A stretch of 56,563 bases of DNA from Fibrobacter sp. (lineage in GTDB: Bacteria; Fibrobacterota; Fibrobacteria; Fibrobacterales; Fibrobacteraceae). Shown piece by piece: positions 24,949 to 46,138 of the stretch. The number at the start of each line of letters is the position of its first letter. The stretch's first letter is position 1. Position numbers and translations under genes: made by a program. The notes below the pieces were generated by a model, which worked only from the letters and a program-made list of their open reading frames with translations, did no database searches and had not been told where the DNA came from. The stretch spans positions 1-56,563 of the forward strand of contig JAKSIC010000019.1 in assembly GCA_024399015.1 (NCBI GenBank), written 5' to 3'.

Positions 24949-24972
24949 AATCGTTTACTTGAGTAAACGATT
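24949..24972. promoter_or_regulatory. 24-bp perfect palindrome upstream of TIGR02147 gene
   Basis: AATCGTTTACT-TG-AGTAAACGATT is an exact inverted repeat starting at the acetyltransferase stop and ending 13 bases before the -35 box at 24986. A T-rich run follows, so it could be a terminator, but the position equally suits an operator for the downstream regulator gene. Confidence 0.5.
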
Positions 24973-24985
24973 ATCCTTTTTTATT

Positions 24986-25014
24986 TTGACTTTTTGAAGG
25001 TTAACTCTTCTATT
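24986..25014 (+). promoter_or_regulatory. sigma-70-type promoter, near-leaderless TIGR02147 gene
   Basis: TTGACT (24986-24991), a 17-base spacer and TCTATT (25009-25014). The ATG at 25024 is only 10 bases past the -10 box, so the message would start almost at its start codon. The spacer contains GAAGGTTAACTCTTC, an imperfect dyad. Confidence 0.55.
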
Positions 25015-25023
25015 TTTTATGTT

Positions 25024-25872
25024 ATGGAAAATGAAGAAGTGAGAAAACTTGTAGAACCCGATGTGTTGCAGTACACGAACTATCGTGTATACCTGAGGGA
25101 CTACTACGAATACAAGAAGAAGACGGTGTCCGCCTTCAGTTTGCGATTCTTTGCCGAAAAGGCCGGGCTTTCTAGTCATGCCCATTTGAAACTTGCTATT
25201 GACGGCAAGCGTAACATTACCAAGAACACCGTGACCAAGTTGATCCATGGTCTCGGTCTTGAAAATCAGCGTGCAGCTTACTTTGAAAGTTTGGTGTTCT
25301 TCAATCAGGCACAGACCGATGAAGACAAAAAGATTTACTACGCACAGTTGATCAAGGCTAGCCCTCGTTCCAAACTTCATAAGATGGACAAGGCTCAGCT
25401 TCGCATTTTTAAGGAATGGCATCATTCTGCAATTCTTGAGATGGTGGGGCTCAAGGATTTCCGTCCGATTCCAGAACAGATTTCCAAGCGCCTCCGTGGC
25501 CTTGTGACTCCGGCTCAGGTTACAGAATCTTTGAACCTGCTGTTGGAAATGGGGCTCTTGGTAAAAACCGCCAACGGATATCGCCAAAGCAACCCGCTGA
25601 TTACAACAGATGACGAAGTCCAGGATATGATGGTGAAGCTTTACCATTTCCAGATGTTGAAGCTTTCTTCCACAATGTTGTCTGAACTTCCTGGCGAGGA
25701 AAGGGACATTTCTGCCCTTACTTTTGGAATTAAGCGCTCAGATTTCGTCAATTTGAAAAAACATCTACAACTAATGCGAAAAGAACTACTAGATTTCTCT
25801 GCAAAAGCAGGAGAAGCTGAAGAAGTTGTTCAAATCAACTTGCAGCTGTTCCCTCTTACCCGAGGAGTGTGA
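25024..25872 (+). CDS. TIGR02147/DUF4423 family putative regulator (1), 282 aa
   Basis: A member of the Fibrobacter-expanded TIGR02147 family. The N-terminal half has a helix-turn-helix-like pattern (SLRFFAEKAGLSSHAHLKLAIDG then ITKNTVTKLIHGLGL). The C-terminal DUF4423 part ends with VVQINLQLFPLTRGV, almost the same end as the second copy at 43209. A DNA-binding regulator is the best guess. It overlaps the next gene by one base (TGATG), coupling it to a lipoprotein gene. The open frame goes ten codons further, but the start at 25024 fits the near-leaderless promoter. Confidence 0.85.
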   Translation: MENEEVRKLVEPDVLQYTNYRVYLRDYYEYKKKTVSAFSLRFFAEKAGLSSHAHLKLAIDGKRNITKNTVTKLIHGLGLENQRAAYFESLVFFNQAQTDEDKKIYYAQLIKASPRSKLHKMDKAQLRIFKEWHHSAILEMVGLKDFRPIPEQISKRLRGLVTPAQVTESLNLLLEMGLLVKTANGYRQSNPLITTDDEVQDMMVKLYHFQMLKLSSTMLSELPGEERDISALTFGIKRSDFVNLKKHLQLMRKELLDFSAKAGEAEEVVQINLQLFPLTRGV

Positions 25873-36974: not shown

Positions 36975-37589
36975 ATGAAACAGTTGCTCGTTGCTTTATT
37001 CCTGTTTTTTTCTGCAGGTGCCTTCGCACAGGATTTGGATACGCTCTACGCTATCGACCCGAGTGGTGAAACCGTGGCGCTGGTTTTTGAGAAAGGTAAT
37101 GAGCCTGTTATTCCCGAGGGTATGCGACTCATTGAGTTCCGTCTGGGAAATGAAGATAAGATTGTCACCCCGGAAATCATTACTGATGAAGCTGAAATTG
37201 ACAGCATTGCGTATTATCAGAATTTGATTGACCTGAACAACGAAAAAGACAAAAGGTACAATAATACGGGAAACATCCTTCTTGGCAGCAGTGGTGCGGC
37301 ATTTTTGCTTGGTACGATGATGATTGTTGATGCTATTAATGGTGGTTCTGGGGAGCTTGGCATTTTAGAGGCGATCGGAGGCTTGTGTCTTGAAGGCGTT
37401 GTTCTGCCTCTGGGTGTTGCCGGTTTGATTTTTAAACTTGTGGGCAGCTCGAAAGGTGGCGACGCTGCCGAGTATCAGCGAAACCTTGATTCCTACAAAC
37501 AGAAAAATTCCGTGGTCAAGCTGGATATTGTCCCTGTGGTCAATCCGGTTAACAGGACTATTGGTGGAAACTTCGCATTGGTGTTCTAA
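36975..37589 (+). CDS. tandem paralog 1: secreted Gly-rich membrane protein, 204 aa
   Basis: The first of three tandem related genes. A signal peptide (MKQLLVALFLFFSAGAFA) is followed by DLDTLYAIDPSGETVALVFEKG, then a polar stretch, Gly-rich hydrophobic helices (ILLGSSGAAFLLGTMMIVD, LCLEGVVLPLGVAGLIFKLV) and the family ending VVNPVNRTIGGNFALVF. It differs from its siblings by a longer polar insert after the first motif. GGAGG and AGGA precede the ATG. It may be an envelope protein whose glycine-zipper helices insert in a membrane. The function is unknown. Confidence 0.6.
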   Translation: MKQLLVALFLFFSAGAFAQDLDTLYAIDPSGETVALVFEKGNEPVIPEGMRLIEFRLGNEDKIVTPEIITDEAEIDSIAYYQNLIDLNNEKDKRYNNTGNILLGSSGAAFLLGTMMIVDAINGGSGELGILEAIGGLCLEGVVLPLGVAGLIFKLVGSSKGGDAAEYQRNLDSYKQKNSVVKLDIVPVVNPVNRTIGGNFALVF

Positions 37590-37608
37590 TGATTTGGGGC
37601 GACGTTCA

Positions 37609-38154
37609 ATGAAAAAGTTTATTCTCGTTTTAATGTTCCTTTTATCGGTTAGCGTCTTTGCTCAAGAGAAGGATACGACTCTTGTTCTTGACGCCCAGGG
37701 CGATACTGTGGCTCTTGTCTACAATAAGGGCGAAACGCCTATTATTCCTGCGAATTATGGACCTTTAGACAGTACCGCCATTTATGAAAAAAGGGTTTCG
37801 GATGCTAGGGCGGCTGTTGTTATGGTCGTTCTTGGCGGTATAGCCGGGACTGCACTGGGCATTGCGGGTACGGTTTATTTTGGTTCCGCTTTTTCTTCTT
37901 ATGGAGGCGCTCTTGAGTCTGGTGGTATCGTAGGGGTATTTATCGTACCTCTTATAATTGCGTCGGCAATAGGTGCCATTGGGGGCGTGGTTGCGATTTT
38001 TGACGGGGGGTACACTCTTTCTGTTGGGGTGGAAAAATATCGTGCCGACTTGGAAAATTACAAGAAGCGGAAACAAGGCCTGAGTGTACGATTCTTGCCT
38101 GTGGTCGATCCGATTAATGAATCTGTGGGTGGCTATCTTGCTCTGTCGTTTTAG
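37609..38154 (+). CDS. tandem paralog 2, 181 aa
   Basis: The same plan as paralog 1: signal peptide MKKFILVLMFLLSVSVFA, the shared motif TTLVLDAQGDTVALVYNKGE, two or three Gly/Ala-rich membrane helices (AVVMVVLGGIAGTALGIAG, VGVFIVPLIIASAIGAIGG), an amphipathic helix EKYRADLENYKKRKQ and the ending LPVVDPINESVGGYLALSF. The start ATG 37609 gives exactly the length of paralog 3. The gap from paralog 1 is 19 bases, so one operon is likely. Confidence 0.65.
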   Translation: MKKFILVLMFLLSVSVFAQEKDTTLVLDAQGDTVALVYNKGETPIIPANYGPLDSTAIYEKRVSDARAAVVMVVLGGIAGTALGIAGTVYFGSAFSSYGGALESGGIVGVFIVPLIIASAIGAIGGVVAIFDGGYTLSVGVEKYRADLENYKKRKQGLSVRFLPVVDPINESVGGYLALSF

Positions 38155-38174
38155 GGGTGGTTGAGGGGAATTTT

Positions 38175-38720
38175 GTGAAAAAATTGATTTTTATTTTGTT
38201 GCTTTTGCTTTCTGTGGGAGCGATGGCGCAGACGATGGATACCACACTGGTGGTGGACGCCCAGGGGGATACGGTTGGGTTGATTCATACGAAGGGTGAA
38301 GTGCCTTATTTTTCTGAAGAGTATAGCCTTGTTACCGATAGCGTGGGCGTTTACCGTTGGGAGGTGGCTAAGGGCATTGCTGGTGGTATCCTAGAAGCCG
38401 CTGGCGGTTGCATTTTGCTGCCTGCTGGAATTTATGGAACCTACACTATTCTGTCTTGGCTTGGTGGTGATTCGGGCGGTGGAGGCTATGCCATAGGCCT
38501 AGGGGCGTTTATTATCCCGGGGTTGGCGCTCACTGCCGGTGTGGCGGTGCTGGGTGGGGAGTTGTTTGTCGTTAGCATAAATAGCTTTGTATCTGCGCAT
38601 AAGAACAGAATTAAATTGAAAAAATACAGGGAAAAACAGAATGATTTGGCAGTTTCTTTTGTACCCGTCATTGACCCGGTGAATAAGGTGATGGGTGCGA
38701 ACCTGGCCTTCAATTTCTAA
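38175..38720 (+). CDS. tandem paralog 3, 181 aa (GTG start)
   Basis: GTG 38175 follows GAGGGG and yields a signal peptide (KKLIFILLLLLSVGAMA) and the motif TTLVVDAQGDTVGLIHTKGE. Gly-rich helices (IAGGILEAAGGCILLPAGIY, GAFIIPGLALTAGVAVLGG) follow, then helix KLKKYREKQNDLA and the ending VIDPVNKVMGANLAFNF. It equals paralog 2 in length and shares its N- and C-terminal blocks, which supports recent duplication followed by divergence of the middle. Confidence 0.65.
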   Translation: MKKLIFILLLLLSVGAMAQTMDTTLVVDAQGDTVGLIHTKGEVPYFSEEYSLVTDSVGVYRWEVAKGIAGGILEAAGGCILLPAGIYGTYTILSWLGGDSGGGGYAIGLGAFIIPGLALTAGVAVLGGELFVVSINSFVSAHKNRIKLKKYREKQNDLAVSFVPVIDPVNKVMGANLAFNF

Positions 38721-39525: not shown

Positions 39526-39615
39526 TTTGTATCATGAAAAACAAACCAAGTATCATGAAATTTTACAAATTTGTATCATAAAATTGTTGACGTATGATAC
39601 AAATCAAACTATATT
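39526..39615 (+). promoter_or_regulatory. promoter with four GTATCAT operator half-sites
   Basis: GTATCAT occurs at 39529, 39550 and 39573 on the plus strand and as ATGATAC at 39594, at spacings of 21, 23 and 21 bases (about two helical turns). The last pair is the inverted repeat TTTGTATCAT-N14-ATGATACAAA (39570-39603). It encloses TTGACG (-35, 39587-39592) and reaches into the 17-base spacer before TATATT (-10, 39610-39615). Binding would block RNA polymerase. It lies 121 bases before the gene at 39736 and forms a near-twin of 43153-43198. Confidence 0.75.
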
Positions 39616-39692
39616 TGGAATCAAGGAAGAATTAATGGGCTTTTTGGGGGCTTAGGAGGATTTTTCCTGACAACAATGGTTTTTAACTTAAT

Positions 39693-39715
39693 CCCTTCTT
39701 TTGGACGAAGAAGGG
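39693..39715 (+). promoter_or_regulatory. leader hairpin before the 1120-aa gene
   Basis: CCCTTCTT and AAGAAGGG form a perfect 8-bp stem with a 7-base loop in the 5' leader, ending 20 bases before the ATG. There is no T run. It may stabilise the message or limit translation. Confidence 0.4.
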
Positions 39716-39735
39716 GGTTCTAGAGGACTACAAAA

Positions 39736-42700
39736 ATGAAAAAACGTTTAGTGATGCTGATGCTTTCTCTGACATCGGCGATTTTTGCTAGGGAATATTT
39801 CACCCTGCATTATTGGGATGGCGAACCACAACGAATGGATGTTTATGAATTAAGGTTTAGCTTGAAAAATGGTGAGCAACCTCTTAAGGATGTTCAGGTT
39901 TCATTTAAGTTGAATGTTGCTAGTGGTAAAAAGTTGTCAGTTGAACCTGTGTTTCTTCCAAATGCGAAGGTGAGTACCCGACAGGTTTATGGAAATTTTT
40001 ATCTCACGGTGTCTGTTAATGATATTCCTGCTAATTTTAAATATCCTGACGAAGATGGTTTTCGAGTTGCAATCCGTTACGAAGACCAGTCTTCTATTGA
40101 TAAATCAAATTTTTTTGAGTACAAAATAGATGGTAATGCTATTTATAAAAATCCGCAGGTTTGGATTGGTGACGAAGGCGCGGATTGTACCACTCATGAT
40201 CTTGGCTTGATAAATAGCAGCAGAAACGCACATTGTGTCATAAAGAAGGCGCAGTCGCATACGTACAATGGGGAATCTCCAATCTATCTTCAAGAAAATG
40301 TTTTTGACTTAGAATCCGATAATATTATCACAAATGAGGTGAAGGCTGTTGGCAAGACCGATGGCACTACTGTGTTCCACAGTATAAGTTCTCTTCAAAA
40401 ATTTTCATGGAAACCGGTGTTCCTTGCTGAACAATATCGATTTACGCTTTTTGACGAAAAGGGCAATCCGCTTACACAGACCCTTACTAAGGATGCTTCG
40501 GTTGTTATTCCGATGCCGTCCGGAAATTTTAAGTGGATGGTTGAAGCGCTTGAGACTGCTCTCACGAGAGAATCTGGATTTGATCCTCTATGGTTTGTTG
40601 CTTATGCGAAGCCAGAAAATACGTTCTCTTTGAAGGTGGTAGACTTGAGCAGCAGTAAAACCATCTTGCCGACTCATGTAGCTGAAACTGAATATATCGG
40701 TGCCCGCAAAGATACCAAAATGCTGGTCCCAAATCTTGTCTTGAATGCAGAAAGTCAGGGCTGGAATAAGATGGTTACGGAAGGTTTTGAAAACGCCTAT
40801 GGCCAAGATGTTCGAATGCCGATTGCCATGCGCTGCTGGGCTATTGCCATTAATATGCTCAATAGAAAGTTTGGCGGTGATTTGACGCAAGATGAAATTA
40901 CTGCTTATGGACTGACCCTTCGCTCTGGGGATCCGATGTTTGGCGCATTTGGCTTTTATTGGGGAAATGGATTGGAAGAAGGCTACATTATTAGAACCTT
41001 GGAATGGGCTCTTAACACGAAAGGTGAGATGATTAATGGAAACGGGATGGAAACCGCTGAGATTGAAAAAATAATTGCGGATATGTTAGATGCTGGCAAG
41101 CCGGTTCCTGTTGAAATTCCTGGTCATGTAGAAGTTATTGATGCGATGTACACGGATGACAATGGTCGAGCATTTGTAAGAATTCTTGGTGCCCAGAGCG
41201 TCGATTATAAGGTCGTGTATGAATATTTAGATGAGATTGATATCCAGAGTATTTTTGATTATGAAATTCCTGAATATGGCTCTGTGAGAATGACCGATGC
41301 AGAACATTCTGTATTTGTTGATTCTGATGAAGATGGTATTGTTGATTATGATGAAGTTCATCGATTCAACTCTGATCCGAAAAAGCCGGATACTGATTTT
41401 GATGGAATTTCCGATTATATTGAAATTCTTTCTTTTGTTCGTCGTATGAATGAATTGGCCAATGTGTCTTATACCTCGGGCGTTGAATATTCTTTCTATG
41501 GACTAGACAATCAGAAATATCTGGCTGATAAGTTCAAAGAACTATTCAATCATAAGCAGCCTTGGAAGGTGAAAAATTTTGATGCAGAATCCAAGATTGA
41601 CGGTGGGTCGCTTAATGGATTAATCGATGAACCCGAAAAACTTCCGTGGCGAAATGCGGATTCTGATGGAGATGGAATTGCAGATGGCGATGAGGATAAA
41701 AATCATAATGGTGTTGTTGATATTGGTGAGTTGACTGATCCATTTAACCCGTTGGATGGTTACCTTGATCCGAAGGATTTCTACGATGTTCCGGAAGGAT
41801 TTGCGGTCTACGCAATGAATCAATTGAACATTGAAGATGGGGCTTATTGCGCTGTTGTGAAAAACGCCGTTGTGAATGTTCTTAAAAGAGGCAGTAATCA
41901 GCCTTCTGAAGATCTTGGCTGTCATGTCGCATCGCAAGGTGAATCGCTGGAGTCTGTTTTCATTGGTAGAAATACCTATTTCAATGATGTCTACAGCAGA
42001 GGAAAAATTGAAATTGGAGACAACTCTACTGCAGCGCGCCTTTACACGTATAGTACTCACAAAGCAACGATAACGAATGAGAATGGTGAAACCAAATTTG
42101 CACCGGCATCGTCTTATAATCTTCTGTCCATGATTAGTAGGGAAGGTGATGTTAAATCTGTTGCCAGTGTGCAGAGGTATCCTGGAGACTGGATCTGGTT
42201 CGTAAATACGAATTTGGAAAATTATGACGCTGGTGAAGAAAGTGTTGTGGTGAAGGATGGTGAAACCTATGTGCTGAAAAATGGTGCGAAAATCAAGAGA
42301 TTGTTTGTTCACGAAGGTGGAAATCTTGTGATTGAACCTGGAGAGATGTATCTTGGCAGTGTACAGTTAAATGATAGTTCGTTTGTTTCCTTTAGTACCG
42401 GCGTTGGTTCCGCTATTGTGCATGTGAATGGATTGTTTAATTGGCATGCAAAATTCAAGACGATTTCGCCGGAATCGTTTGCAAAACGTTTAAAGATTAT
42501 TCAGCATAGTGATTTTTCCATGGTTATTCTTGAACCGTTTCTTGGTACAATTTTTGCCCCAAAGTCTAATGTGGAATTGGAATCATCGGATGTTCGCGGC
42601 CGATTCTTGGGAAAGAATGTGATTGTGAGGAAAAATGTAAAACTGTATGATGTCGCATTTGAAGAAAAGGCTTATGTTGCTCCTGCAGAAGGCGATAAGA

Positions 42701-43098
42701 AAGATTCTGTTGAAACTTCGATAGATCCTGAAGAAAAGGATACCGTAACCACTCCGGAACAGCCTAAGGATTCTGTGATTGTTCTGGAAGATGTTAAGGA
42801 TTCTACAGCCGCTCCGGAAGAAACTGATGCAATTGTAATGCACAATGATGCTGCGCGTGGCCTTAAGATCGTTGGTGTGAACAAGAACGAATTGGTGTTT
42901 GAATCCGCTTCTTCTGCTCGCTACCAGGTGCAAATCGTCAAGATCAATGGTTCTCATGCTGCAAGCTACAACTTCAATAAGAGCAATGTCGGCACGAACG
43001 TGGTGAACCTTGCTGACGCAAAACTCTCTAAGGGTCGCTACCTTGTGGTTGTCAAGCAGAGTGGCCTCATGAGAAGCCAGATGCTCATGATCAAGTAG
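39736..43098 (+). CDS. large secreted protein: Cys-peptidase-like, Ca-binding repeats, 1120 aa
   Basis: A signal peptide (MKKRLVMLMLSLTSAIFA) leads into beta-rich N-terminal domains. Around residue 366 MRCWAIAINMLNRKFGG, near 465 IPGHVEVIDAMY and near 486 ILGAQSV resemble the Cys, His and polar residues of a papain/C39-like cysteine peptidase. Thrombospondin-3-type calcium motifs follow at about 530-565 (DSDEDGIVDYDEV, DTDFDGISDYIE) and 640-665 (DSDGDGIADGDEDKNHNG). A Pro/Glu/Asp-rich linker precedes a C-terminal domain (GRYLVVVKQSGLMRSQMLMIK) like a type IX secretion sorting tail. A secreted or surface enzyme is likely; proteolysis is an inference. Confidence 0.7.
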   Translation: MKKRLVMLMLSLTSAIFAREYFTLHYWDGEPQRMDVYELRFSLKNGEQPLKDVQVSFKLNVASGKKLSVEPVFLPNAKVSTRQVYGNFYLTVSVNDIPANFKYPDEDGFRVAIRYEDQSSIDKSNFFEYKIDGNAIYKNPQVWIGDEGADCTTHDLGLINSSRNAHCVIKKAQSHTYNGESPIYLQENVFDLESDNIITNEVKAVGKTDGTTVFHSISSLQKFSWKPVFLAEQYRFTLFDEKGNPLTQTLTKDASVVIPMPSGNFKWMVEALETALTRESGFDPLWFVAYAKPENTFSLKVVDLSSSKTILPTHVAETEYIGARKDTKMLVPNLVLNAESQGWNKMVTEGFENAYGQDVRMPIAMRCWAIAINMLNRKFGGDLTQDEITAYGLTLRSGDPMFGAFGFYWGNGLEEGYIIRTLEWALNTKGEMINGNGMETAEIEKIIADMLDAGKPVPVEIPGHVEVIDAMYTDDNGRAFVRILGAQSVDYKVVYEYLDEIDIQSIFDYEIPEYGSVRMTDAEHSVFVDSDEDGIVDYDEVHRFNSDPKKPDTDFDGISDYIEILSFVRRMNELANVSYTSGVEYSFYGLDNQKYLADKFKELFNHKQPWKVKNFDAESKIDGGSLNGLIDEPEKLPWRNADSDGDGIADGDEDKNHNGVVDIGELTDPFNPLDGYLDPKDFYDVPEGFAVYAMNQLNIEDGAYCAVVKNAVVNVLKRGSNQPSEDLGCHVASQGESLESVFIGRNTYFNDVYSRGKIEIGDNSTAARLYTYSTHKATITNENGETKFAPASSYNLLSMISREGDVKSVASVQRYPGDWIWFVNTNLENYDAGEESVVVKDGETYVLKNGAKIKRLFVHEGGNLVIEPGEMYLGSVQLNDSSFVSFSTGVGSAIVHVNGLFNWHAKFKTISPESFAKRLKIIQHSDFSMVILEPFLGTIFAPKSNVELESSDVRGRFLGKNVIVRKNVKLYDVAFEEKAYVAPAEGDKKDSVETSIDPEEKDTVTTPEQPKDSVIVLEDVKDSTAAPEETDAIVMHNDAARGLKIVGVNKNELVFESASSARYQVQIVKINGSHAASYNFNKSNVGTNVVNLADAKLSKGRYLVVVKQSGLMRSQMLMIK

Positions 43099-43116
43099 TG
43101 CGCTGCTGAATTGGTT

Positions 43117-43150
43117 AGGAGGAAGGGCCCGCCCCAAAGGCGGGTCTCCT
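43117..43150 (+). terminator. hairpin terminator after the 1120-aa gene
   Basis: A strong stem GaCCCGCC-type (GGCCCGCC/GGCGGGTC, extended by AGGA/TCCT) with loop CCAAA is followed by a weak T-rich run. It lies just before the operator at 43153. Confidence 0.65.
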
Positions 43151-43152
43151 TA

Positions 43153-43198
43153 TTTGTATCATTTGTGTATTGACACATAATACAAAAGAATCTATATT
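43153..43198 (+). promoter_or_regulatory. promoter/operator of TIGR02147 gene 2
   Basis: The inverted repeat TTTGTATCAT-N14-ATAATACAAA (43153-43186) encloses TTGACA (-35, 43170-43175). A 17-base spacer and TATATT (-10, 43193-43198) follow. Geometry and sequence match the promoter at 39570-39615, and GTATCAT-to-ATAATAC spacing is again 21. The ATG at 43209 is ten bases past the -10 box, so the message is near-leaderless. Autoregulation by the encoded protein is the simplest reading. Confidence 0.75.
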
Positions 43199-43208
43199 AT
43201 AGTACATA

Positions 43209-44036
43209 ATGAAGTCTTTAGTAGAATATCAGGATTATCGCTGCTACATGCAGGATTTTTACGATGAACGTAAGCAGACCTCGTCGTTTACCTGGCGTGA
43301 ATTTGCTCGGCTGGCGGGATTTTCTTCTCCCGTTTACTTAAAGCTTGTTTGCGAAGGAAAGAGTAGCCTTAGTGAACTTGGCGTTGAAAAAGTTGCTGCT
43401 GCCATGAGTCTTGGCGGTTTTGAACTGGTGTACTTCCGTTATTTGGTGCAGTATAACCAAGCTAAGGATGACGTAGCAAAGAAGAGCGCCTTCTCCCACA
43501 TGCAGGACATTGCTAGGGTGAATAAGGTTCGTGTCGTCGATGGTGATGCTTTTGCCTATTTTGAATCCTGGAAGAATCCGGTGCTTCGTGAACTAGTTTC
43601 CATGATGCCGGGTGCTGATCCTGAGAAACTTGCCGGAATGTGCTGGCAGCCCGTAACTGCAGCCGAGGTCCAGAGATCCCTGGATTTTATGGTGAGTGTT
43701 GGCATTCTCCAGAAAAAGTCTGATAACGAATATGTTCAAACGGATAAGTCCCTAGTTGGAAATACCGATGTTATGCCTTTGGCTATTCGTTCCATGCATC
43801 GCGAAATGGCAGGCTTTGCTCAAAAGTCTATTGACGAATTTGATCCCAAGGACAGGAATTTCAACGGTGTTACCATGAGTATTGACCGTGATGCGTATGA
43901 ACAGATTACTCGAGAACTAGAATCCTTCCGCCGTAAGATTGTTTCTATCGCTAGTGCAAGCGAAGGTTCCGATCAGGTGTATCGATTGAATCTGCAATTG
44001 TTTCCTTTAACTAAGAAGGTTGAACCTTCAAAATAA
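43209..44036 (+). CDS. TIGR02147/DUF4423 family putative regulator (2), 275 aa
   Basis: A paralogue of the protein at 25024: YQDYRCYMQDFYDERKQ matches YTNYRVYLRDYYEYKKK there. An N-terminal helix-turn-helix-like segment follows (TWREFARLAGFSSPVYLKLV, VEKVAAAMSLGGFELVYFRY), and the shared end is VYRLNLQLFPLTKKV. It probably binds DNA and, from its own operator, represses itself and the 39736 gene. It lies 26 bases before a lipoprotein gene, the same pairing as at 25024/25872. Confidence 0.85.
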   Translation: MKSLVEYQDYRCYMQDFYDERKQTSSFTWREFARLAGFSSPVYLKLVCEGKSSLSELGVEKVAAAMSLGGFELVYFRYLVQYNQAKDDVAKKSAFSHMQDIARVNKVRVVDGDAFAYFESWKNPVLRELVSMMPGADPEKLAGMCWQPVTAAEVQRSLDFMVSVGILQKKSDNEYVQTDKSLVGNTDVMPLAIRSMHREMAGFAQKSIDEFDPKDRNFNGVTMSIDRDAYEQITRELESFRRKIVSIASASEGSDQVYRLNLQLFPLTKKVEPSK

Positions 44037-44062: not shown

Positions 44063-46138
44063 ATGAAGAACATTTTTAAAAATAGCGTATTTCTGTCTTG
44101 CGTTACTACAGCACTTCTTGTGCTAGGTTGTACCGATCCGGGAACTAGCCCGGGAGGTGGTTCAAATATAAAAGTTGCTGGTAGCTGTACTTCGGAGGGC
44201 AACGCGTGTGATGTTGTTGCCATGACTTTTGCATTATTCAAAGATATTTCTGAGGATTATGCAAAGGCTGTGCCTGAATATTTGACCGGAGGTGGACTAA
44301 AAATTGAAGTCCTGGCTGAATCCGTTGATGGCTTAGACTCCCTTCGTTCCGGAGTGAAGCTTGATGTCGCCGATACAAATGGCAATCCTGTATCTTTGAC
44401 GGGTTATTATGGTATTGATCAATTGTGTGTGACGTATTCCGCACCGAAGACTTTGTTTGTAACTTTGGATCTTGGTGAAAAAATCAATACGTTGTTGAAG
44501 GGTGGTTTGCCTACTGCAACCTTAGAGCCTCGCGATACTGTTGGGGAGTATTGCGTTCAGTGGGATGAATTTAAACAGCCCATTAATTTCGTGAAGGACC
44601 CCGTTGAACGTGTTGCTGCTCTTCAATTCTGGATGTGGCTTGAACCGGGTGAAAAGACTTCCTTTAACCTTGATGGCGTTACTTTGATTGCTCCTCTAAA
44701 GGACGATGTGTCATCTAGTTCTCAAAAAGTAGAGTATTCCTCAAGTTCTAGAGGTGATGAGGCTTTTGTTGAGGAATATCTCACTATTGCGGAGTATAAC
44801 ATTCCCGTGCACAAGGAATGCCAGAATGATACTCTTGGTTTGGTGCTCGGTTGGGAAGGCTGTAAGGATGCCAATCGCGTTGCCACAGGCTTTGACAATG
44901 GCTCGGATTCCAGCGGTTACTGGTATGTGACTCAGGAATCTTATAAGGCGTTTAGTGCCATTACCTGGCCGACACCAAGAATGAACAAGCTGATTGTCCC
45001 GGCATCTGAAGTTGATGCTTGTGGCGGTTTGTGTGGTAGAATCGACTTCGAAGTGGATGAAGAATCTTTGATTGGTTTGGCCTTTAACGTGGCGGGAACC
45101 CTAGAAGACGGAGAATCGCTGGATTGGGCTGACGTGACTAAGCAATACAGTGGAATCTGTGTTACCTACTTGTCTTCTGCAAAGATGTCCATTGAACTTG
45201 TTCCTGAAGAGTCTGTAGCGGCTAGCCTTACCTATGGTGCTGCCACTATGCAACCTTGGCCGAGCAGAGACACTACCGTGATTACAAGGTGCATTGATTT
45301 TAATACTGACGACAGAAAACTTGCTGCAAGCCGTCTGCAATCCATTAGACTTCATTTCTATGAACAAAGTGAACCGACTGCATACTTCAATATTCTCTCC
45401 GTTGGTTTTAAGAAGTATTCTGGAGGAAGTTCTGCTCAGGATTCTGACAGCGCTCAAGGGTCCATTGGAACCATTAAACAGAGAAGAGTTAATACTTTGC
45501 TTATCGACGAAGTTGAAATTCCGGTCTATAAACAGGATGGTTTTAAATCTTTCGGTGATACTGTGGTTATTTGGCAGGGTACGGATTATAGGATTTCTAC
45601 AGGCTTGGACAACGGTTCTGATTCTAGCGGATACTGGTTTGTTGTGGATGAAGATTTCCCGCTTGAAAGACAGATTTATTGGCCCATGCGAGTCCCCTAC
45701 AATACCAACAAGATTCCTAACAGCGTGATTGATACTTGCCGGGGCATGTGCGGCGCAGTTGATTTCGAAATAGATGAAAACGATGATCTTGCTGTTGCAT
45801 TTAATGTTGCTGGTGTAGATAAATCTACTGGTAATGTGGCTTGGGTTGATGCTACTGAAAAGTACAGGGGAGTCTGCTTGACCTTTTATTCCGATGTAAA
45901 CGTGAATATTGACCTTGTTCCTGAAGAATCAGTAGCAAATCAACTTGCTAGGGAAGCCGTTTCGTATAAATCTTGGCCTGCTCCAGAAATGATTGTGACA
46001 AAGTGCTTGAAATTTGATGAAACCGAGGAACTGAAACTTGCTGCTTCCCGCTTGGAAACAATTCGCATCCGCTTTACAGACGCCGGATTACCTCAGGGGG
46101 CATTCAATATCCAAGCATTGAGTTGGCTTAAAAAATAA
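44063..46138 (+). CDS. multi-repeat surface lipoprotein paired with TIGR02147 gene 2, 691 aa
   Basis: The lipobox LVLGC is followed by a Gly/Ser-rich tether. There are two well-matched domains of about 210 residues (residues ~240-450 and ~480-691). Each begins with IPV and contains TGxDNGSDSSGYW, then CGxxxGxxDFExDE, AFNVAG, an LVPEESVA block and KLAASRLxxIRxxF. A weaker first copy (~50-215) shares only the CVTYSAPKTLFVTLDL-type and ALQF segments. Ser-rich linkers (SSSSQKVEYSSSS) join them. Jelly-roll-like carbohydrate binding is plausible but not shown. Followed by a strong terminator. Confidence 0.75.
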   Translation: MKNIFKNSVFLSCVTTALLVLGCTDPGTSPGGGSNIKVAGSCTSEGNACDVVAMTFALFKDISEDYAKAVPEYLTGGGLKIEVLAESVDGLDSLRSGVKLDVADTNGNPVSLTGYYGIDQLCVTYSAPKTLFVTLDLGEKINTLLKGGLPTATLEPRDTVGEYCVQWDEFKQPINFVKDPVERVAALQFWMWLEPGEKTSFNLDGVTLIAPLKDDVSSSSQKVEYSSSSRGDEAFVEEYLTIAEYNIPVHKECQNDTLGLVLGWEGCKDANRVATGFDNGSDSSGYWYVTQESYKAFSAITWPTPRMNKLIVPASEVDACGGLCGRIDFEVDEESLIGLAFNVAGTLEDGESLDWADVTKQYSGICVTYLSSAKMSIELVPEESVAASLTYGAATMQPWPSRDTTVITRCIDFNTDDRKLAASRLQSIRLHFYEQSEPTAYFNILSVGFKKYSGGSSAQDSDSAQGSIGTIKQRRVNTLLIDEVEIPVYKQDGFKSFGDTVVIWQGTDYRISTGLDNGSDSSGYWFVVDEDFPLERQIYWPMRVPYNTNKIPNSVIDTCRGMCGAVDFEIDENDDLAVAFNVAGVDKSTGNVAWVDATEKYRGVCLTFYSDVNVNIDLVPEESVANQLAREAVSYKSWPAPEMIVTKCLKFDETEELKLAASRLETIRIRFTDAGLPQGAFNIQALSWLKK

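Follow-up and report, generated by a model that had tools for sequence, protein, structure and literature searches.

The locus considered here lies in a 56,563-nt stretch of the genome of a Fibrobacter sp. (3,336,797 bases; the whole stretch is called the window below). It contains two similar combinations of an inverted repeat and a promoter, one preceding the gene for a large protein and the other preceding the gene for a regulator of the TIGR02147/DUF4423 family, which raises the question of what protein reads these sites and which genes it controls. An earlier note on this DNA had proposed that the regulator encoded at 43209 binds both sites and represses itself, its lipoprotein partner and the 1120-residue protein. 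Genome-wide site scans were pattern scans only. The features of the locus are the following:

39526 to 39535, plus strand: extra direct half-site TTTGTATCAT, 5' of operator 1
39550 to 39556, plus strand: extra direct half-site GTATCAT, 5' of operator 1 and 21 bp from the preceding one
39570 to 39603, no strand: operator 1, TTTGTATCAT-N14-ATGATACAAA, a perfect inverted repeat (0 mismatches) directly 3' of hisH
39587 to 39615, plus strand: promoter 1, TTGACG (39587), 17-nt spacer, TATATT (39610-39615)
39736 to 43098, plus strand: gene for the 1120-residue protein, between both operators, with a signal-peptide-like N-terminus and a weak TSP3 match
43125 to 43147, plus strand: terminator-like hairpin followed by a T-rich tail, between the 1120-residue gene and the regulator promoter
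43153 to 43186, no strand: operator 2, the regulator's own, TTTGTATCAT-N14-ATAATACAAA, with 1 mismatch (in arm ATAATACAAA)
43170 to 43198, plus strand: promoter 2, TTGACA (43170), 17-nt spacer, TATATT (43193-43198)
43209 to 44036, plus strand: TIGR02147/DUF4423 regulator, 275 aa, with an Xre-like helix-turn-helix (about residues 1-100) and DUF4423 (106-267)
44063 to 46138, plus strand: lipoprotein gene, 691 aa, the operon partner, 26 nt 3' of the regulator

The twin palindromes around TTGAC(G/A), with their 17-nt spacers and TATATT, lie to the base where they had been described, and the extra GTATCAT copies at 39529 and 39550 with a 21-23 base rhythm were likewise found, the steps from 39529 being 21, 23 and 21 bases. 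On the plus strand of this series, only the GTATCAT copies at 39529 and 39573 stand in the full TTTGTATCAT context. The centre of each operator coincides with the 5' edge of the -35 hexamer; in promoter 1 the -35 element is located within the operator, and the right arm falls in the spacer between -35 and -10. Promoter 1 carries 10 of the 12 consensus bases and promoter 2 carries 11. The chance expectation for the long palindrome in the window is 0 (100 shuffles), and a pattern scan allowing up to 3 mismatches revealed no further palindromes elsewhere in the 3,336,797-base genome. GTATCAT by itself shows no significant excess in the window (6 observed, 4.1 expected); it is the paired or extended site alone, as opposed to bare GTATCAT, that is significant there. 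The 3.34 Mb genome contains 11 exact copies of the 10-mer TTTGTATCAT. Five of them closely precede four TIGR02147 genes (for these five, binomial p about 3e-11), three are in the promoter of the 1120-residue gene and three in coding or unrelated sequence.

Because the -10 element of promoter 2 ends 10 nt before the ATG of the regulator (43209), the regulator mRNA made from this promoter is probably leaderless or nearly so. The same probably applies to many sister regulators; in the upstream regions L193-L221, which belong to the Tyr46 class described below, the -10 element is located about 6-10 nt before the ATG.

The 43209 product is a full-length TIGR02147 member (301.8 bits, cut-off 50) and also matches DUF4423 (100.1 bits, cut-off 30). 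The genome codes for 26 TIGR02147 paralogs, all of which match DUF4423 as well. Outside the genus, the family was detected in 27 of 28 tested genomes (1-54 copies each) and in none of the 14 controls. Residues 1-100 are predicted at a pLDDT of about 90, and the predicted structure of the 43209 product contains a lambda-repressor-like DNA-binding domain, whose nearest solved folds include HigA, P22 c2, SinR, C proteins and DdrO (VIA Z about 7-9 for HigA, P22 c2, DdrO and SinR). By sequence alone, the paralogs match Pfam helix-turn-helix families only weakly (4 of the 26 match HTH_31, best 3e-4). The predicted structure of the DUF4423 half is unreliable (pLDDT about 40). Residues 128-182 of this half (window 43590-43755) gave a profile match to a PhiH1 repressor-like winged helix at E 0.012, a hint only, which if true would provide the regulator with a second potential DNA-binding element.

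The palindrome was sought in 151 genomes with at most 2 mismatches, using the reversed pattern as a control. It is present in 26 of the 80 Fibrobacter genomes and in three others, 29 in total, and the reversed pattern in 2 of the 151. Within the genus, nearly all palindromes are positioned directly before a TIGR02147 gene. An independent protein search, in which a close ortholog of the 43209 regulator was defined by at least 72% identity, yielded orthologs at 72-79% identity in 25 other Fibrobacter genomes, the next best proteins being 61% or less. The genomes with the palindrome are exactly those with the ortholog (26 and 26 of 80, including the window's own genome; Fisher p 1.3e-21 for co-occurrence, with no phylogenetic correction). 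Enrichment of the motif near TIGR02147 genes, which the earlier note had put forward as a check, is overwhelming, and the assignment of the site to the 43209 regulator is supported as far as sequence can show. The palindrome lies 19-112 bp upstream of 25 of the 26 orthologs, and is perfect in 23 cases and carries one mismatch in two. Over these 25 promoters, the 20 arm columns show no variation at 18 positions and a single exception at each of the remaining two; of the spacer, the TTG of the -35 element alone is invariant and the rest drifts, and the -10 element is nearly invariant. Upstream of the 26th ortholog (in G055), the arrangement TTTGTATCAT-N15-ATGATACGAA is located behind hisH, further upstream, with a small coding region before the regulator. 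The same genome contains a single near-perfect copy (1 mismatch) elsewhere, in front of a relative of the window's lipoprotein gene, which is likely to represent a natural target in trans. At L186 3675-3990 (G019:C27), a perfect operator-promoter precedes what is left of a regulator gene (MKPVTEYHDYRSLVHYNQAKDDET), seemingly a second copy with an internal deletion. A dyad scan 5' of TIGR02147 genes outside the genus showed no clear excess (a mean of 7.5 of 9 matched, against 7.2 in shuffles); as judged from these comparisons, the site principle is supported for Fibrobacter only.

We consider it very probable that both sites are operators of the 43209 TIGR02147 protein, which would autorepress the regulator-lipoprotein operon by occluding the -35 element and the spacer, and in this genome also the 1120-residue gene. 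A dimer, or a pair of dimers, would read the two TTTGTATCAT half-sites through the N-terminal Xre-type helix-turn-helix; at 21 bp, or two helical turns, the half-sites would be presented on one face of the DNA. Since the operator straddles the -35 element and its right arm fills the -35/-10 spacer, the bound protein would be expected to keep RNA polymerase off a promoter that is otherwise close to consensus. In this way the regulator would control its own synthesis together with that of an envelope lipoprotein and, in this genome, that of the 1120-residue protein, whose gene would stand behind an ancestral copy of the operator. A signal, presumably sensed by DUF4423, would relieve the repression. 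We infer binding, dimerisation, repression and the signal from the features described above, and the preference for repression over activation comes entirely from promoter geometry.

The upstream regions of the other paralog classes and their orthologs were compared, and 115 regulators were sorted according to residue 46, which sits in the predicted recognition helix. In the other paralog classes the half-sites start with TTTGT and then diverge. Regulators with Leu46 are associated with GTATCAY in 58 of 73 cases; five more have GTTTCAT-like sites, and ten have no site, several of these being genes within operons. Tyr46 is associated with GTRTTCY (27 of 29) and Asp46 with GTACTC (3 of 3), with no crossover between residue class and half-site among the classified sites. 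Residue 46 appears to track the half-site, in a strong pattern that includes few independent switches (at least 8 changes between all residue groups on the tree) and is confounded with clade. L192, the ortholog of a sister regulator, shows the exact geometry of the window's site with another half-site, TTTGTACTCT-N14-AGAGTACAAA around TTGACA. The motif holds for the window's class but not family-wide, each class having its own half-site and arrangement, and it would thus be a single word in a code used by the family. We regard the apparent operator code across the paralogs as a more important result than the original site assignment, and the correspondence between helix and half-site, if the inference is right, would lend itself to direct and cheap tests of binding.

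Three other regulators of the same genome, L008, L014 and L015, share the GTATCAT half-site with the window's regulator, so that cross-binding among the four is possible. These paralogs have similar recognition helices, and their half-sites form either a palindrome or direct repeats. The sites may bind at least two of these sister regulators in a cross-regulating network, with the orientation and spacing of the half-sites rather than their sequence giving specificity. Against this, the arrangements are strictly class-specific; we view such cross-regulation, which is compatible with autorepression by the 43209 protein, as possible although rather doubtful.

Several further observations concern the sister genes. 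Tyr46-class (L007-type) regulators are clustered, with several copies per about 10-30 kb (G006:C62 54518-81578, G026:C1 21967-36520 and G047:C26 168987-176994), which suggests repeated duplication of regulator-lipoprotein units. The distal site of this class, upstream of the L195-L221 regulators, is a near-perfect palindrome, GTATTCCtGGAATAC, with a further half-site about 21 bp on. The window itself contains a second TIGR02147 gene (24994-25872), and the sequence AATCGTTTACTTGAGTAAACGATT upstream of it (24949-24972) may serve either as an operator or as terminator for the gene before it.

Most of the other classes share a promoter layout, in which direct repeats 20-22 bp apart are joined by a further copy lying 69-74 bp downstream and 12-14 nt ahead of the -35 element. 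The L008 clade has a 21-bp interval between its direct half-sites and 71 bp to the next copy; from the G of that copy it is 13 nt to the start of the -35 element. The Tyr class again has spacings of 20-22 and 69-73 bp, and a spacing of 70-74 bp is found in the Asp class, L013/L072, L170-172 and L015. A second class-specific half-site occurs 60-80 bp away in 62 of 69 promoters from six classes (0 of 3450 shuffles); as promoters within a class share descent, the independent evidence for the layout is the agreement between classes. A search for a distal half-site in the window's clade was negative; this clade uses the compact palindrome, and extra direct half-sites of the type at 39526-39556 were not seen 5' of the regulator palindrome in relatives. 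Both layouts, palindromic and direct-repeat, share the 21-bp step of two helical turns.

The position of the sister half-sites, with the proximal one just upstream of the -35 element in most classes and distal copies 69-74 bp up, would fit activation or looping, and the TIGR02147 protein might bind its sites as an activator, or act in both directions depending on a ligand. Near-consensus promoters need no activator, however, and MerR-type activators use a long spacer; in the window's class the right arm fills the spacer of a promoter with 10-11 of 12 consensus bases, and this spacer has 17 nt. We therefore consider activation unlikely. Still less probable is that another DNA-binding protein, such as a global regulator, reads the site and that the TIGR02147 genes are merely its targets. 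Such a reading draws on the sequence-based nature of the link between site and protein. The palindrome, however, occurs in one or two copies per genome and, within the genus, only in ortholog-bearing genomes. Moreover, differing half-sites precede differing TIGR02147 classes while the geometry is shared, which favours self-recognition, since a single global regulator predicts otherwise. Chance or a repeat element, a reading encouraged by the abundance of short dyads in AT-rich intergenic DNA, is already refuted by the comparative data (0 of 100 shuffles, arms conserved and spacer variable over 25 promoters, 29 genomes with the palindrome against 2 with the reversed control) and retains practically no weight.

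Taken more broadly, autorepression by the 43209 protein may be one instance of about two dozen parallel, self-wired lipoprotein switches per Fibrobacter genome. Each would have a helix-specific half-site (Leu46 GTATCAY, Tyr46 GTRTTCY, Asp46 GTACTC) within a rigid layout common to all (21 bp, about 71 bp, 13 nt to the -35 element), probably a looping promoter, and accessory genes such as that for the 1120-residue protein would join by landing behind an operator copy. We offer this generalisation tentatively, as one that might equally well fail in part or whole. If it is true, about 26 proteins per genome would become transcription regulators for which operators and target lipoproteins can be predicted, and the operator code may suggest how gut fibre-degrading Fibrobacter control their surface lipoproteins.

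In the open literature searched, we found no published DNA site or mechanism for TIGR02147 (Fsuc_second)/DUF4423, in agreement with the earlier note, and nothing on TIGR02147, Fsuc_second or FISUMP. DUF4423 is mentioned there once, for a protein that Bdellovibrio upregulates while growing inside its prey. TIGR02147 is a Fibrobacterota paralog family of up to tens of copies per genome, with no assigned function in this literature; a site, its promoter position and its class variants are here assigned to the family by comparison. The F. succinogenes genome paper described the regulation of cellulase genes as an unanswered question, with few recognisable regulators near them (PMC3079729).

Like the Xre/Cro-CI autorepressors (HigA, P22 c2, SinR and the C proteins of restriction-modification systems), the 43209 regulator combines this N-terminal fold with paired half-sites overlapping the promoter of its own operon. 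It differs from them in its 10-bp half-site, 14-bp gap and C-terminal DUF4423, in the rigid 21 + 71 bp direct-repeat layout of its sister classes, and in its partner gene, which codes for an envelope lipoprotein of 691 aa where theirs encode toxins, restriction enzymes or lysis functions; the operon has no small toxin gene of the kind found in HigBA-like modules. The RRNPP regulators (PlcR, Rgg, arbitrium receptor) also have an Xre-type helix-turn-helix followed by a larger C-terminal domain, and PlcR and the arbitrium receptor are among the structural matches of the helix-turn-helix. RRNPP regulators bind a peptide through C-terminal TPR repeats; for the DUF4423 proteins, neither such repeats nor a gene for a signal peptide came to light among the data at hand, in which most members have no TPR family among their Pfam matches, the family gave one weak TPR_27 match, and the C-terminal model is unreliable. 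AraC, GalR and lambda CI are repressors with distal and proximal operators. The sister-class half-sites resemble theirs in lying 69-74 bp (about seven helical turns) apart, with the proximal one beside the -35 element; the window's class, in contrast, has no distal site, and looping in the sister classes is only putative.

As in the other TIGR02147 (Fsuc_second)/DUF4423 paralogs of Fibrobacterota, the regulator is a full-length member with an adjacent lipoprotein gene: a lipoprotein-type gene is directly 3' of 23 of the 26 paralogs, lipoproteins being called from the lipobox by eye or regular expression rather than with a signal-peptide predictor. FISUMP, lectin-like LamG or carboxypeptidase-regulatory-like domains occur in several of them. 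The 691-aa lipoprotein evolves fast, with relatives at roughly 21-33% identity behind many regulator orthologs. For the gene of the 1120-residue protein, on the other hand, the 79 other Fibrobacter genomes contain no ortholog (the best matches reach 28-32% identity), and no palindrome was found at its remote homologs. The order in the window is hisH, operator, 1120-residue gene, terminator, operator, regulator, lipoprotein and rph. In G035, G039, G009 and UBA7003 (L071) it is hisH, operator or half-sites, regulator, lipoprotein where recognisable, rph, pheA and nlpC, and in relatives the operator directly precedes the regulator at the same locus. For these reasons, the 1120-residue gene seems to have been acquired between two copies of the operator, which would account for the twin arrangement and limit the link between operator and 1120-residue gene to this genome. 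The generally conserved pairing is that of regulator and lipoprotein; the emphasis on the 1120-residue protein, as a putative target specific to this genome, is the weakest part of the original claim. The promoter before the 1120-residue gene was also considered as the older copy by the likeness of its spacer to the closest relative (12 of 14 bases), a weak argument, as A-rich spacers are common; the synteny argument for the insertion stands without it. On the other side of hisH, three consecutive genes for small secreted proteins of one family (204, 238 and 187 aa) occupy 36975-38720 of the window, and a comparable set is located 5' of hisH in G055 (L184).
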